Shown here one piece after another: positions 42,964-49,956 of a stretch of DNA of 64,000 nt. Under the pieces are notes generated by a model. That model did not search any database. It saw nothing but the letters and a program-made list of their open reading frames with translations, and had not been told where the DNA came from. Each line of letters opens with the position of its first letter. Positions within the stretch are counted from its first letter, which is position 1. Made by a program: the position numbers and the translations under genes. The DNA comes from Lentzea sp. NEAU-D7 (GTDB lineage: Bacteria; Actinomycetota; Actinomycetes; Mycobacteriales; Pseudonocardiaceae), in contig NZ_JAPJDL010000002.1 of the NCBI RefSeq assembly GCF_026242055.1, positions 310,001 to 374,000 on the forward strand, given 5' to 3'.

Positions 42964-43592
42964 TCGCCCTCGTTCGGTACCTCGCGGTCGACGTCCTTCG
43001 CGGGCAACGGTATCTGGCGCCGCTGCTGGTGTTCCTCGGCGTGATGGGGATGCTGTTCGCCAGCGACGCCGGGCAGCCTCTTGAGGCGTATTCGGGTTCG
43101 TCGGCGCTGCTCTACCCGATCGCGGCGTGGATGGCCGTCGTGGTGGCGACGTCCGAGGACGTGGTGCGGCGCGAGATCACCGTGGTGAACGCGGGCGGCT
43201 GGCCGCGGGTGCTGACGGCGGCGGCGCTGGTCGCGGTGATGTTCGCGATGGCCATGGCGGTGCTGGCGGCGGTGTGGCCGGTGGTGACGAACCCCCACCC
43301 GTACACGGCGGGCGAATTTTTTGTCGGACTCGCCGCGCATACTGGATGTGCGTTGCTCGGCGTCGGGGTGGGCCTGCTGTTCGCCCGTCCCGTCCTCGAC
43401 TCCATCGGGCGCACCGTGCTGGCGGTGTTCTCGGTGGTGGTGCTGACGTACCCGCTGGGGCGGGCCACCCCGCTCGGGTGGGTGCTGGACGCGCTGGGCC
43501 ACAACAGGGTGTCGCTGTCCCTGCTGGGGACGGCGGCGGTCGGTGTCGCGCTCGTGGCGGCCGCGGTGGTGGCCGGGGTGCGGCGGGCCTGA
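42960..43592 (+). CDS. ABC transporter membrane subunit
   Basis: It has 210 residues and about six membrane helices (YLAPLLVFLGVMGMLF, LLYPIAAWMAVVVA, VLTAAALVAVMFAMAMAVLA, CALLGVGVGLLFA, VLAVFSVVVLTYP, LLGTAAVGVALVAAAVVAG), the topology of an ABC-2 type permease. GTG at 42960 overlaps the ATPase stop. Its own stop TGA (43590-43592) overlaps the start of the regulator at 43592, so all three genes are translationally coupled. Confidence 0.85.
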   Translation: MIALVRYLAVDVLRGQRYLAPLLVFLGVMGMLFASDAGQPLEAYSGSSALLYPIAAWMAVVVATSEDVVRREITVVNAGGWPRVLTAAALVAVMFAMAMAVLAAVWPVVTNPHPYTAGEFFVGLAAHTGCALLGVGVGLLFARPVLDSIGRTVLAVFSVVVLTYPLGRATPLGWVLDALGHNRVSLSLLGTAAVGVALVAAAVVAGVRRA

Positions 43593-46500
43593 TGCGGGTC
43601 AACGTGCTCGGGCCGCTGCAGGTCCTGGCCGAGGACGGCGCACCGGTCGAGGTGCGCGGAAAACGGCTGCGGTGGCTGCTGATGCGGCTGGCGGTGGAAC
43701 CTGGCACCGTCGTCGCGCCGGACCGGCTGATCGCCGACCTGTGGCCGGACGAGCCGCCGGTCGACGGTGCCGCGGCGTTGCAGTCGCTCGTCTCGCGGTT
43801 GCGGCGGGTGCTCGGCGCGGCCGCGATCTCGTCGCACGCCACGGGATACCGGCTGGAGGCGGAGACCGACGCCGAGGTCTTCGCGCGCACGCGTGACGCC
43901 GCATTGTGGCGTGGCGCGGCGTTCGAGGAGGCGCCGTTCGCGGCGGACGAGGCCGTGCGGCTGGCGTTGCTGCGCGACGACCTCGCGGGCCTGGAGGCGC
44001 TGGCGGCCGCGCATCCGCTGCGCGAGGACGTGCAGGCCCGGTTGATGCTGGCGCTGAACGCCGCCGGACGGCGGTCGGACGCGCTGGCGGTGTTCGCGCG
44101 CGTTCGCACGGCCCTGGCCGACGAACTGGGCGTGGACCCCGGTGAGGCGCTGGCGGCCGCCCACCTGACGGTGCTGCGCGAGCGCGTCGCGCGCGGCAAC
44201 CTGCCGGCGCCGGTCGGGTCGTTCGTGGGGCGTGGCGCGGACCTGGCCGCGCTGGGCTCGTTGTTGCGCGACAACCGGTTGGTGACGCTGACCGGGTTCG
44301 GCGGCGTGGGCAAGACGCGCCTCGCGCTGACGCACGCCGCGTCGGAACCGCAGGCGTGGTTCGTCGAGCTGGACTCGGCGGCCGATCCGCTGGCGGCGCT
44401 GGACGCCGCCCTGGGCCCGAACCCGTTGGCGGCGCCGGTGTTCTCGCGGCTCGGGTCGTCGCTGGTGGTGCTCGACAACTGCGAGCACGTCGTGGACGCC
44501 GCCGCGGCGCTGTGCGTCCGGCTGCTCGCCGAGGCGCCGGACGCGCGCGTGCTGGCGACGTCGCGCGAGCCGCTGGGGATCCCGGGCGAGGTCGTGTGCC
44601 CCGTGGCGCCACTCGACCTCGATCACGCCGTGCGGTTGTTCTCGGCGCGGGTCGGTACCGCGCTGGATGCGGACGTCGTGCGGCGAGTTTGTGCTGCGCT
44701 GGAGGGGATTCCGCTCGCCCTGGAGCTGGCGGCGGCCCGAGCCCGGTCGTTGTCGGCGGCACAGCTGGAGTCTCGTGTGGACAGTCGGCTGCGGTTGCTC
44801 GACCGCGGCGCGCGGACCGGACCGGCGCGCCACCGGACGCTGAGGGCCGTGATCGACTGGAGCTGGGATCTGCTGGACGAGGCGGAGCGCGCGTTGCTGG
44901 CACGGCTGGCCGTGTTCGTGGGGGGCGCTACCGCCGCGGCGGTGCACGAGGTGTGCGGGGCTGACTTGGACGCGGACGCCGCTGGCGGGGTGGCTGCCGC
45001 CTCGGTGGGTGCGGCTCGTGCGGATGCGGCTCGTGTGGATGCGGCCGGCTTGGAAGCGGCCGGCTTGGGTGGAGTGGCTGCCGGGGTGGCGGACGAGGTG
45101 GGTGGTGCCAGTTCGGGCAGGGCGGTTGCTGGTTCCGGGCACGAGGTGCGCGGGACCGGCGTTGGTGAGGCCAGCGCGGGTGGAGTGGCTGCGTCGGTGG
45201 TGGGCGAAGCCGGTGGGCCCGTTTCGGGCGGTGCTGGCTTGGGTGGGGCGGCTGCTCCGGTGATGAGCGAGGCTCGCAGGGCTGACTCCGGCGGAGCGGC
45301 CAGCGCGGTGGCGGACGAGGTGTGCGGGGCTTACTCGGAGGCGGCCGCCGTGAGCGGGGTGGCCGCCGCTGTGGTGGCCGCGGCTCGTGTGGACGCCGCG
45401 AGCTTGAACGCCGGGGGCTCAAGTGGCGCGAGCTTGGATTCCGCGGGTTCAGGTGGTGCGAGCTTGGACTCCGCGGGTTCAGGTGGTGCGGGCTTGGGCG
45501 CGAGGGGTTCTGGTGGCGAGGGTTTGGACTCCGCGGGTTCAGGTGGTGCGGGCTTGGGCGCCAGGGGTTCTGGTGGCGAGGGTTTGGACTTCGCGAGTTC
45601 AGGTGCCGAGAGCTTGAACGCCGCGGGTTCAGGTGTCGCGAGCTTGGGCGCCGACGGCTCAAGTGGCCCGGGCTTGGACTCAGCGGCCCTGGGTGGCGCA
45701 GCCGCCGAGACGGCGTACGAAGCGCGCGGGGCAGGCTCTCGCAGGGGTACCCCCTCTCCGGGAACCCCTACATCTCAACGTACTCACGAGGTCCGACAAG
45801 ATCGGGACCTCTGGGACACCGAGGACCTGCTGGCCGCTCTCGTCGAGAAGTCGCTCGTCGTTCGCTCAGGTGAGCGCTATCGGCTGTTGGAGACCGTGCG
45901 CGAGTACGCGTCGGAGCAAGGGCAATCGGACCACAAGAGACACGCGGCCTACTACGTGGCGCTGGCCGAGCGGTACGAGCCGTTGCTGCGCGGGCCGAGG
46001 CAGCTGGAGGCGTTGCAGGTCTTCGACGCGGAGCGGGCCAACATGGACGCGGCCATGGCGTGGGCTGTGGGCAACGACGTCGGGGTCGCGCGGCGGATGA
46101 TGGCCGCTCGTACGTGGCACTGGCTGGTGATGACCAAGAGGTTCGAGGAGATCCGCCGCTGGGCTCCGCAGGTTCCCGGGGACGCGCTGTCGGAGGTGCT
46201 GGCCGCGCTCGGCACGCCTCAGGCGGTGGTCGCGGCCGAGAGGTTGTGGCAGGAGGAAGTGCCCACGGCGTTGTGCGCGCTGATGCTGACCAGCGGGCAG
46301 ATCTGGGGTGTGCGGGAGCTGGGGGACCGGTTCGCGTTGCTCGCCGAGCGGCTGGAGCGGTCGCCGGACGAGTGGATGCGGGCGTTCTCGGCGCTGGTGC
46401 GCGGGGTGGTGGCCGGGGAGTTCAGCGAGGGGGCGTTGCCGGAGGCCGAGGCGCAGTACCGGCGGGCGCTGGAGCGGTTCCGGGCCGTCGGTGACCGGTG

Positions 46501-47152
46501 GGCCGTGGTGTTCGGGTTGTCGTGCCTGGTCATGTTGCTGATCAACCGGGGCGCGTTCGCCGAGGGGTTCGCGGCGGTGGCCGAGGCGCGGGAGGTCGCG
46601 GAGGAGCTCGGCGAGCCGGAGAGCGTGCTGGTGCCCATGTCGGTGCTGGTGCAGACGGCTCGGCTGAAGATCAGGATCGGAGATCTCGCCGGGGCCGGTG
46701 AGGATCTCGCGACGGTGCCCGCGCCGGCGTTCGCGCTGGACCGGGGGCGGATCGAGCAGGCGCACGCGGAGATCGCGTTCTTCAGCGGCGACTTCGAGGA
46801 GGCCGTCGCGCTGTACCGCAGGGCGTTGGACGCCACGGCGGGCTCGCGGGCGAGCCAGTTCCGGGCGACGGTCCACGCCGGACTCGGGCTGGCGCTGACC
46901 CGGCTCGGCCGCCTGCGTGAGGCGGGGGAGGAGCACCGCAGGGCGCTCGGCACCGTCGAGGAGAGCGCGGACGGGCCCGCTCGCGCGTCGGTGCTGGAGG
47001 CGTACGCGGACTGGCTGCTCGCCCAGGGCGATCCCGCCGGCGCGGGGAACGCCCTGGACGAGGCCGGACGGCTACGCGGCGGACCGAGCAGCGACCCTGC
47101 GGTGGTGCAGCTGCGTGACCGGGTTCGCGCCGAAGTACGCGTCGATCGCTGA
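43592..47152 (+). CDS. AfsR/SARP-type regulator with a long repeat insertion
   Basis: It has 1186 residues. Residues 1-90 are the OmpR-type DNA-binding domain (MRVNVLGPLQVLAEDGAPVE) and about 91-205 the BTAD. Then comes an NB-ARC-like ATPase with P-loop GFGGVGKTRLA (Lys241) and VVLDNCEHVVD. The helical arm after it (SWDLLDEAERALLARLAVF) is followed, instead of the usual short link, by about 275 low-complexity Gly/Ala/Ser residues (about 460-735), including a 10-residue repeat. The family sequence resumes at DTEDLLAALVEKSLVVRSGE and ends with TPR-like repeats. It is likely an activator of the upstream ABC genes. The last 81 bases overlap the next gene. Confidence 0.9.
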   Translation: MRVNVLGPLQVLAEDGAPVEVRGKRLRWLLMRLAVEPGTVVAPDRLIADLWPDEPPVDGAAALQSLVSRLRRVLGAAAISSHATGYRLEAETDAEVFARTRDAALWRGAAFEEAPFAADEAVRLALLRDDLAGLEALAAAHPLREDVQARLMLALNAAGRRSDALAVFARVRTALADELGVDPGEALAAAHLTVLRERVARGNLPAPVGSFVGRGADLAALGSLLRDNRLVTLTGFGGVGKTRLALTHAASEPQAWFVELDSAADPLAALDAALGPNPLAAPVFSRLGSSLVVLDNCEHVVDAAAALCVRLLAEAPDARVLATSREPLGIPGEVVCPVAPLDLDHAVRLFSARVGTALDADVVRRVCAALEGIPLALELAAARARSLSAAQLESRVDSRLRLLDRGARTGPARHRTLRAVIDWSWDLLDEAERALLARLAVFVGGATAAAVHEVCGADLDADAAGGVAAASVGAARADAARVDAAGLEAAGLGGVAAGVADEVGGASSGRAVAGSGHEVRGTGVGEASAGGVAASVVGEAGGPVSGGAGLGGAAAPVMSEARRADSGGAASAVADEVCGAYSEAAAVSGVAAAVVAAARVDAASLNAGGSSGASLDSAGSGGASLDSAGSGGAGLGARGSGGEGLDSAGSGGAGLGARGSGGEGLDFASSGAESLNAAGSGVASLGADGSSGPGLDSAALGGAAAETAYEARGAGSRRGTPSPGTPTSQRTHEVRQDRDLWDTEDLLAALVEKSLVVRSGERYRLLETVREYASEQGQSDHKRHAAYYVALAERYEPLLRGPRQLEALQVFDAERANMDAAMAWAVGNDVGVARRMMAARTWHWLVMTKRFEEIRRWAPQVPGDALSEVLAALGTPQAVVAAERLWQEEVPTALCALMLTSGQIWGVRELGDRFALLAERLERSPDEWMRAFSALVRGVVAGEFSEGALPEAEAQYRRALERFRAVGDRWAVVFGLSCLVMLLINRGAFAEGFAAVAEAREVAEELGEPESVLVPMSVLVQTARLKIRIGDLAGAGEDLATVPAPAFALDRGRIEQAHAEIAFFSGDFEEAVALYRRALDATAGSRASQFRATVHAGLGLALTRLGRLREAGEEHRRALGTVEESADGPARASVLEAYADWLLAQGDPAGAGNALDEAGRLRGGPSSDPAVVQLRDRVRAEVRVDR
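45391..45690 (+). repeat. in-frame 30-bp minisatellite, ten units
   Basis: Ten degenerate copies of a 30-base unit stand head to tail without spacers; unit 2 (45451-45480) begins AGGTGGTGCGAGCTTGGACT. Units 3 and 5, and 4 and 6, are nearly identical to each other, which shows a 60-base higher-order copy. Each unit encodes ten residues such as SGGASLDSAG or SGGEGLDSAG, within the regulator at 43592. About 400 bases of looser Gly/Ala/Val coding precede it. Confidence 0.9.
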
Positions 47153-48462: not shown

Positions 48463-49956
48463 TTACTTCTTGAGCAGCTCGATCAGCGCGTCGACGTCCT
48501 TGGGCTCGAAGCCGCGGAACAGCGACAGGGCCAGCTCGTAGTAGGAGCGGACCGGGCTGACGTACCACTTGCCGTCGACCTCGGTGGCGACGACGCCGAC
48601 GCCGGTCTTCATGACCGACCCGGCCACCCGGCCGATGATCTCGACGGCCTCGGCGGGGACCTTCTTGCCGCCCTGCTGCTGCAGCAGCTGCGTGATCTCG
48701 TCCGCGCACAGCTTCTGCGAGCCCTGGCCAGGCACGTCGGCCGCGTAGCAGTCACCCTCGCGCGTGATCGTCACCGTCTCGCCCTCGGCGGTGACCGACA
48801 GCTTCTTGACCGTGACCTGCTTGCCGCCGGCGACGTCCTTGACGTCGGTCTCCAGCGCGTTCAGCTTGGCGCCGGTCGGCTTCTGCTTGCCGGCTTCGGC
48901 CAGCAGCAGCGGGCCGAGGTCCTGCAGCACACCGGCCTCGTCGGGCGGAAGCAGCGCGATGACCTTCGACAGGTCGGCGTCGAGGGCGGCGTTCACCATC
49001 TGCTTCGCGGCGTCCTCGGCCGAGCTGGCGCCCTGCGGCGCGATGCCCTGAGCCGGCCACTTCTTCTTGTCCTCCTCCAGGACCGCGTTGGCGATCGTGT
49101 AGAAGGCGCTCGGGTACCACTTGTCGCCGACCTTGATCGACGCGATGCCGATCGGCGTGCCGCGCTTCTGGACCTCGGCGGTGATGTCGAAGGTCTCGGA
49201 CTTCGACGAGGTGAGGTTCAGGTCGTCACCGAGCGCGTCGACGAGCTTGTCGGTGAGCGGGATCTTCGACGCGTCCGAGGTGATCGTGATCTTGCCCTCG
49301 ACCAGCTTGTTGATGGTGAGGTGGTCGTTGATCTTCTCGGCCTTGGCCTCGTCGAACTTGATGTTCTCGCTCTTGAACTCGACGCCGCTCAGCTTGTTCG
49401 GGTCGGCTTCGGGCTTGAGGATCTCGAGACGCTTCATCTCCTTCGTCATCGAGTCCATGTAGTCCTTCGACAGCGCGGCCTCGGCCGGCGCGAGCGACGC
49501 CATGATGCCGACGACGTCACCGCTGCCCAGCTGCTCGACGAGGTTCTTCGCCGCGATGGCCGGGGTGTCCTGGCCCGAACCGGGGGCGGCCTTCTGCAGC
49601 GCGAAGAACGTGACACCGCCGCCGATCAGCAGCAACACGGCGACGACGGCCGTGACGACCAGGCCGGTGCGCTTCTTCTTCGGCGGCTCGCCGCCCATCG
49701 GCGCGTAGCCGTAGGGCTGCTGGGGGAAACCCTGCTGGGGAAAGCCCTGCGGGCCCGTCTGCGGGAAGCCCTGCTGCGGGAAGCCCTGCGGTCCGGTCTG
49801 GGGGTATCCGCCCTGCTGGGGCTGCTGCGGGTAGCCCTGCTGCGGGTAGCCACCCGGCTGCTGGGGCTGCTGCGGGTAGCCGCCCTGCTGGGGCTGCTGC
49901 CCGTACGGGTTGTTCTGCGGCTGCCACTGGTCGCCGCCACCACCTGGGTAGCTCAC
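48463..49956 (-). CDS. membrane protein with Gln/Pro-rich head and duplicated outer domain
   Basis: It has 497 residues. The cytoplasmic head (residues 1-96) is almost only Gly, Pro, Gln, Tyr and Phe; then a KKKR stop and one membrane helix (about 97-120, GLVVTAVVAVLLLIGGG). The outside part is two related domains: PAIAAKNLVEQLGSGDVVGI and SAEDAAKQMVNAALDADLSK begin each, and IGIASIKVGDKWYPS and VGVVATEVDGKWYVS recur near their ends. The second domain has a Cys pair (DCYAADV ... QKLCADE). The function is unknown. GTG at 49956 has AGGAGGG and overlaps the stop of the upstream gene. It ends at the 48408 terminator. Confidence 0.78.
   Translation of the reverse strand: MSYPGGGGDQWQPQNNPYGQQPQQGGYPQQPQQPGGYPQQGYPQQPQQGGYPQTGPQGFPQQGFPQTGPQGFPQQGFPQQPYGYAPMGGEPPKKKRTGLVVTAVVAVLLLIGGGVTFFALQKAAPGSGQDTPAIAAKNLVEQLGSGDVVGIMASLAPAEAALSKDYMDSMTKEMKRLEILKPEADPNKLSGVEFKSENIKFDEAKAEKINDHLTINKLVEGKITITSDASKIPLTDKLVDALGDDLNLTSSKSETFDITAEVQKRGTPIGIASIKVGDKWYPSAFYTIANAVLEEDKKKWPAQGIAPQGASSAEDAAKQMVNAALDADLSKVIALLPPDEAGVLQDLGPLLLAEAGKQKPTGAKLNALETDVKDVAGGKQVTVKKLSVTAEGETVTITREGDCYAADVPGQGSQKLCADEITQLLQQQGGKKVPAEAVEIIGRVAGSVMKTGVGVVATEVDGKWYVSPVRSYYELALSLFRGFEPKDVDALIELLKK
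49704..49914 (-). repeat. Gln/Pro/Gly-rich coding repeat
   Basis: Codons for GGYPQQPQQ and GFPQQGFPQTGPQ alternate five to six times in the head of the gene at 48463. Short copies of 24-39 bases are near-identical, so slippage or recombination could change their number. Confidence 0.75.

Follow-up and report, generated by a model that had tools for sequence, protein, structure and literature searches.

An in-frame copy of a dispersed promoter-like hairpin repeat within an expanded loop of a large SARP regulator of Lentzea

How a regulator gene came to hold a long low-complexity insert in an open reading frame, and which part of that insert is maintained, are the questions raised by the gene at 43592-47152 (+) of the window, i.e. 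the 64,000-nt stretch of Lentzea DNA analysed here. The frame is open throughout and encodes 1186 aa. Pfam searches of the protein gave BTAD (2.2e-16) and TPR_12 (3.5e-10), both above cut-off, and Trans_reg_C at 23.5 bits, below the cut-off of 26.2; the NOD had no Pfam match. The family profile A5 aligned to AfsR (PDB 8k60) over residues 25-621 and 696-988 with an E-value of 5.2e-107. The product is a large (AfsR-like) SARP that combines SARP (DNA-binding and BTAD), NOD and TPR parts in one chain, the architecture given for AfsR-type large SARPs in PMC10936776. It differed from these in carrying the insert in its winged-helix loop and in scoring 89.1 bits with the AfsR equivalog NF053617, far below the cut-off of 1430 bits. 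Comparison with L. californiensis revealed purifying selection on the gene both before the loop (pN/pS 0.13) and after it (0.39). The host gene and the loop were delimited as follows:

43592..47152, + strand: large SARP gene (BTAD + NOD + TPR), host of the insert (open frame, BTAD and TPR_12 matches, profile alignment to AfsR 8k60)
44957..45811, + strand: expanded winged-helix loop of 285 codons (empty form GAGDL, five codons), from orthologue and outgroup comparison

With the codon following VHEVC taken as its start and the conserved part preceding WDTEDLL as its limit, the loop comprised 285 residues in the window gene; three Lentzea orthologues had 5 residues there and nine had 28, so that about 280 residues are extra relative to the shortest orthologues. 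This upheld the original prediction of a low-complexity insertion with a 30-bp in-frame array in a SARP, and did not bear out its placement between the ATPase and TPR parts. Both anchors of the loop aligned to AfsR without a break up to residue 621, and the NOD of AfsR extends over residues 271-618, with the arm domain thereafter, according to PMC10936776; thus, the insert lies within the NOD. Among 26 outgroup loci given, seven SARPs were caught by the anchor pattern, and six of these had just a few residues between the same anchors, e.g. RLSVFAGGATLEAIEQVTQGTLDQLTSLVDKSLVV, with about 20 in L039. The part of the NOD that holds the insert is presumably its winged-helix end. On the basis of the outgroups, the AfsR alignment and the published NOD bounds, an identity as ATPase-TPR linker was rejected. 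In those paralogues of the same genome that gave long matches (on contigs C42, C34, C4 and C41), the matched parts adjoined with no such insert.

At the 3' end of the insert we found a 69-nt element that is absent from the original prediction, with the following parts:

45737..45805, + strand: in-frame copy of a dispersed hairpin element, ~69 nt, reading SRRGTPSPGTPTSQRTHEVRQDR in the SARP frame (match to model R1)
45741..45771, - strand: hairpin of the element (folding of 45731-45785; invariant inner arms)
45777..45799, - strand: PafBC-type promoter motif TTGTCGG-N10-TACGTT, antisense to the SARP gene (match to published consensus; column conservation)

Orthologues of the SARP gene were obtained, at E-values up to 1e-110, from 22 of 23 Lentzea relatives (none from G011), giving with the window gene 23 Lentzea genes from one genome per species. 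Three of them, from L. albida, G010 and G023, had the 5-residue loop and no element, nine had the element alone, and 11 had the element plus added low-complexity sequence. The 28-residue loop equals the 5-residue loop plus 69 nt, GAG[SRRGTPxxGTPASQRTQEVRQDQ]DL: in the empty site GGNGCNGGN abuts GACCTS, and in the filled site the 69 nt stand in between. The 11 long loops spanned 65-285 residues: L. jiangxiensis 65, G018 68, G002 72, G022 82, L. nigeriaca 139, G004 155, L. fradiae 157, L. aerocolonigenes 166, G008 245, L. pudingi 255 and the window gene 285. The element was located at or near the 3' end of the long loops and the low-complexity additions mostly 5' of it; the loops of G008 and L. 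jiangxiensis had extra sequence after the element as well, and in L. nigeriaca and G004 the element piece itself was repeated. As judged by eye, the expansions of most species had no evident common sequence, while those of the sisters L. nigeriaca and G004 had parts in common. Aligning relatives, as had been proposed with the original prediction, thus revealed loops of 5, 28 or 65-285 residues with the frame kept, and none of the relatives had the same array, so that a unit number fixed among them was not encountered.

In the SARP tree, 8 of 19 inner branches were unsupported and the backbone was weak, yet on starred branches G022 (82 residues) was sister to G019 (28) and G018 (68) to G021 (28); hence the loop expansions arose more than once. 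A single gain, with all element-bearing species in one clade, was mildly rejected (AU p 0.023) on this weakly supported backbone, which makes it likely that the L. albida/G010 line lost the element. The gene of G002 was left out of the tree and of the fourfold-site comparison below, as its frame changes for a stretch before the loop; this shift and return of frame in the G002 SARP (L242), in a one-contig assembly, represents either a compensated frameshift or a sequencing error. The SARP gene of the window is a mosaic, its fourfold divergence to L013/L014 being 0.08-0.12 over the first 900 nt and 0.24-0.44 thereafter, and for this reason the age of the tract is not readable from the nearest relatives and a gain since the split from L. 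californiensis is not a safe conclusion. The jump in divergence, seen against L. californiensis and L. a. violacea, lies at about 900 nt, before the loop.

The remainder of the insert is made up of two repetitive portions:

44957..45391, + strand: degenerate in-frame tract with copies of the host VHEVCGA codons at 45089, 45137 and 45311, and one more at 45713 (2-6 mismatches in 21)
45392..45691, + strand: ten 30-bp units (TRF; variable columns 8/8/8 by codon position)

With TRF, the 30-bp units were detected at 45397-45686 (9.7 copies, score 272), together with a 90-bp higher-order row. Of the earlier description, in which units at 45391-45690 were in exact register with codons, the array of 30-bp units held, but codons start at 45392 and the 'exact register' means only that 30 is a multiple of three. 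Likewise, the near-identity claimed for alternate units applied to two pairs, 45482/45542 (1/30 differences) and 45512/45572 (2/30), and not to most others; the adjacent units 45422/45452 differed at 3/30 and the remaining pairs at 5-14/30. At each codon position, 8 of 10 columns were variable, the differences among units were distributed 125/128/125 over the three positions, and pN/pS was 0.79 in frame compared with 0.76 and 0.93 in the other frames. This lack of codon-position bias, together with a GC3 of 0.69 in the insert versus 0.92 in the rest of the gene, tells against the tunable linker that had been proposed originally. Four copies of the VHEVCGA codons were present in the insert at ≤6/21 mismatches (500 shuffles: mean 0.26, maximum 3), and the repeat families D2-D4 were found within 44957-45391. 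As its 5' part carries these host-codon copies, imported DNA is not needed as the source of the whole tract, which looks, from its sequence, like slippage-born filler constrained mainly to stay open.

The element proved to be dispersed. A 106-nt query over it gave 10 further matches below 1e-3 in the same genome, 12 at E ≤0.04 and 13 at E ≤1. From 12 own-genome copies the covariance model R1 was built, which is nearly a sequence model since its automatic structure holds only three base pairs; it matched the SARP gene at 45737-45803 with 87.3 bits. With ≤150 candidates scored per genome, R1 detected 27 copies in the own genome, 4-53 in each of 14 Lentzea genomes, the own one among them, and none in nine genomes of other families of the order. 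Under stricter filters, the element was found in 4 of 60 genomes of the family (three Lentzea and G060) and, in a separate draw of 200 family genomes, in 21 (11 Lentzea and 10 others) belonging to 5 of 46 genera, the 10 non-Lentzea genomes representing four genera with weak scores. L. albida (G005) had 4 copies compared with 16-53 in 13 other Lentzea, its sister G010 having 22, and may have lost most of its copies. At L172 (G000:C43:175507-175997) three copies in the same orientation lie within about 500 bp.

A search of 13 own-genome loci against Rfam yielded three matches at E up to 1, all under the gathering score and outside the element; a known RNA family was thus not matched. The element matched nothing in either the plasmid or the phage collection, so spread by plasmid or phage found no support there. 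Terminal inverted repeats or target duplications were not seen by eye in the flanks of the copies. PF01797 (Y1_Tnp), the sole transposase searched, had no match in the own genome, with control matches in 5 of 14 genomes, and REP/RAYT membership as well as mobilisation by a RAYT were dismissed on this ground. None of the titles listed by literature searches concerned the element.

Antisense to the SARP gene, the element reads TTGTCGG-N10-TACGTT followed by the hairpin. The consensus of LexA-independent damage promoters is tTGTCRgtg-8nt-TAnnnT (PMC5656591). For a comparison of copies, 99 of 112 model matches were retained after dropping two duplicates and 11 matches under 40 bits; TGTCRG-N10-TAnnnT, with spacing equal to that consensus, was present in 95 of these 99, a set which includes orthologous and hence not independent copies. 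In 61 distinct 67-nt copies, the fixed positions included TGTC, the G that follows R, the A in TA and the final T; the R column contained G in 56 and A in five, and the specified columns were better conserved than the spacer (p 0.004). Of the 'gtg' only the first g was fixed, with t in 12/61 and the second g in 22/61 copies; some columns outside the motif were fixed too, which counts against the promoter reading. In the own genome, the canonical full motif occurred 11 times, once within an element, compared with zero for the reversed control. Such canonical motifs were located a few bases ahead of start codons in L233, L235 and L239, and the genes behind some of them we take to be ligA, mpa/ARC and clgR. 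In G060, of another genus, the promoter-like half appeared by eye to be the best conserved part in ten printed alignments among 14 matches.

The stretch 45731-45785 folded with -23.7 kcal/mol on the minus and -16.1 kcal/mol on the plus strand. For the copy in L137, values of -36.5 (promoter strand) and -32.4 kcal/mol (other strand) were obtained, and for that in L021 the order was reversed (-26.2 minus strand, -29.2 kcal/mol plus strand). The inner arms of the hairpin, CGCAGGGGTACCCCC and GGGAACCCCT, were invariant in all 20 SARP copies and differed in many dispersed ones. Over 12 stem pairs in the 61 copies, we counted 654 Watson-Crick pairs, 53 G-U pairs on the promoter strand, two on the other strand and 23 mismatches, 48 of the 53 wobble cells being concentrated in two columns, which weakens the promoter-strand reading. 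With a PafBC-type motif preceding a hairpin on its minus strand, the element is perhaps an antisense promoter. Downstream of the motif, an antisense open frame of 244 codons (44928-45662, -) crosses the repeat tract; it need not represent a gene.

Across 19 species, 11 of 13 fourfold third positions in the element were invariant, in contrast to 10 of 159 in the 600 nt flanking it on each side (Fisher 3.5e-10), whereas first and second positions gave 34 of 50 versus 424 of 800. The element had 16 invariant third positions and any flank run of 25 had ≤9; diversity at codon position 3 was 0.10 compared with 0.29 and 0.32. In 16 of the 20 SARP copies, pS was 0.071 and pN 0.119 (ratio 1.68), while the SARP part following the element gave 0.329 and 0.122 (ratio 0.37). 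Eight of nine motif positions, with 'gtg' not counted, were invariant in the 20 copies; their variation was located in the hairpin loop and the spacer, and the variable columns were spread almost evenly over the codon positions (8, 8 and 9 of 25). As far as sequence comparison goes, these data show that the element is preserved as nucleic acid to a degree that its peptide does not demand. Gene conversion among the copies is another possible source of their likeness. For 18 of 19 SARP copies, the nearest copy was another SARP copy, in a comparison from which same-genome copies were missing for 9 of the 19. The SARP copy of G008 (L243) was more similar to the own-genome copies L184 and L193 than to the copy of any SARP orthologue, which hints at such conversion.

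A second host was a gene for a DUF4153 membrane protein, in which the element lies within a low-complexity linker and in the same frame as in the SARP gene. Here 8 of 13 fourfold sites were invariant in the element versus 24 of 108 (nine species, p 0.005); the gene is without the element in G005, G003 and G011. In the own genome (L253 2274-4367, G000:C41) it has a hypervariable low-complexity linker, spanning 66-189 residues in the species measured. Gene context, judged for the 99 copies by codon-position GC only, placed 40 directly behind a stop codon (the stop lying on the promoter strand for 17 and on the opposite one for 12, with 11 between convergent genes), seven between co-directional genes and eight ahead of an ORF that is encoded on the promoter strand; 16 were inside ORFs with the motif antisense and one with it sense, 19 had no clear setting and eight were near a contig end or had short flanks. 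Most copies are thus not in front of a gene, which again speaks against the promoter reading. In 79 copies, the three frames through the element were open 76, 71 and 38 times on the plus and 39, 52 and 9 times on the minus strand, and the antisense bias within ORFs stems at least partly from stop codons on the element's other strand. Tandem repeats (TRF score ≥40) were found near non-SARP copies in 24 of 94 cases in the 150 nt upstream and 17 of 94 downstream, compared with 8 of 177 controls, which are stretches at 850-1000 nt unmatched for non-coding DNA; DUF4153 linkers were long and repetitive even without the element (G005 85, G003 95 and G011 189 residues). The unmatched controls and these linkers weakened the idea that the element causes minisatellite growth on its 5' side.

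Our preferred explanation, to which we assign a probability of roughly 0.6, is that a promoter-hairpin repeat was domesticated in a permissive loop of the SARP and that the slippage beside it was largely neutral. The element, a PafBC-like motif followed by a hairpin, would have entered the winged-helix loop during Lentzea history, an entry proposed because empty and filled sites as well as dispersed copies were found. It is readable in frame; the loop was presumably tolerant, with purifying selection acting on the remainder of the gene. Its nearly frozen fourfold sites show that it has since been kept as nucleic acid, most likely owing to a signal on the antisense strand, possibly a stress-inducible promoter; transcription from it would begin at the hairpin and give an RNA antisense to the 5' half of the SARP gene. 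Slippage or unequal exchange involving local codons would have lengthened the loop beside the element on several occasions and left different species with low-complexity tracts that are mostly unrelated, the 30-bp array of the window forming one layer of such a tract. A more far-reaching version is that a dispersed stress-inducible antisense cassette (PafBC-type promoter plus RNA hairpin) colonised some Pseudonocardiaceae, became fixed in protein genes and placed the SARP under DNA-damage-dependent antisense control, with the peptide as a by-product and the site serving in addition as a source of in-frame minisatellites; this we offer tentatively, as possible but doubtful.

That the element is instead a functionless remnant whose dispersed copies are homogenised by gene conversion, and that the tract beside it likewise lacks a function, is rather unlikely: L. 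albida, G010 and G023 live without it at the SARP site, its copies are numerous and the G008 copy resembles those of its own genome, but the other 18 SARP copies compared are nearest to orthologues (subject to the missing same-genome copies noted above) and their inner hairpin arms never vary, although many dispersed copies differ there. Action of the hairpin in the sense SARP mRNA, as a translation pause, an RNase site or a determinant of mRNA stability, seems improbable, as the strong plus-strand folds of the L137 and L021 copies, the latter better than its minus strand, are outweighed by wobble changes favouring the other strand, by the poorer plus-strand fold of the window copy and by a promoter-like half as well conserved as the hairpin.

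A contingency-type tunable linker, in which unit number adjusts signal transfer by the SARP, would fit the strong differences in loop length between species with the frame kept; yet the insert lies inside the NOD, protein-level selection was not seen among the 30-bp units and the expansions of most species, partly alike only in L. nigeriaca and G004, have no evident common sequence, making this reading very improbable. That the peptide AGSRRGTPxxGTP..RQD serves as a functional motif in the protein is scarcely credible. The same peptide does occur in two unrelated proteins, and the flanks do not exceed it in invariance at first and second codon positions, but the pN/pS of the element, the equal variation of its codon positions and the concentration of unusual conservation on silent sites contradict such a role.

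The domesticated repeat favoured here can be likened, by description and not by sequence, to Rickettsia palindromic elements (RPEs), which PMC10969869 describes as dispersed palindromic DNA in frame inside unrelated protein genes. Like these, the element is dispersed, palindromic and in frame in unrelated genes (SARP and DUF4153), and from its sequence it may be classed as an RPE-like in-frame palindromic element by kind, though not by family. Unlike RPEs, it measures 69 nt instead of about 150, occurs in Actinomycetota, has been seen in two host genes and has a promoter-like half as well as silent-site conservation inside a gene. Correia elements and other promoter-bearing MITEs, small dispersed repeats carrying promoters according to the same source, resemble the element in size, dispersal and possession of a promoter-like motif, but in the element neither terminal inverted repeats nor target duplications were seen, the motif is PafBC-type and not sigma-70-like, and the host family is Pseudonocardiaceae. 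With the PafBC/LexA-independent (P1) DNA-damage promoters, the minus strand shares TTGTCRG-N10-TAnnnT with the spacing of the consensus in PMC5656591; it differs from them in mostly lacking the last two bases of 'gtg', in being joined to a hairpin and in its many copies, which frequently follow stop codons or lie within ORFs in antisense orientation.

The locus provides a coding stretch in which a DNA signal is preserved well past what the encoded peptide demands, a situation found within Lentzea in two genes unrelated to each other. It also indicates that a bacterial regulator can carry a long in-frame minisatellite as filler of a permissive loop rather than as a tunable linker. Should the antisense promoter work, a SARP regulator would be directly coupled to the response to DNA damage, and antibiotic-producing bacteria would have a promoter-bearing repeat of a new kind. 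Elsewhere in the window, the minus-strand ORF at 48463-49956 encodes a Gly/Tyr/Pro/Gln-rich N-terminus that derives from 15-39 bp tandem repeats (49717-49900).
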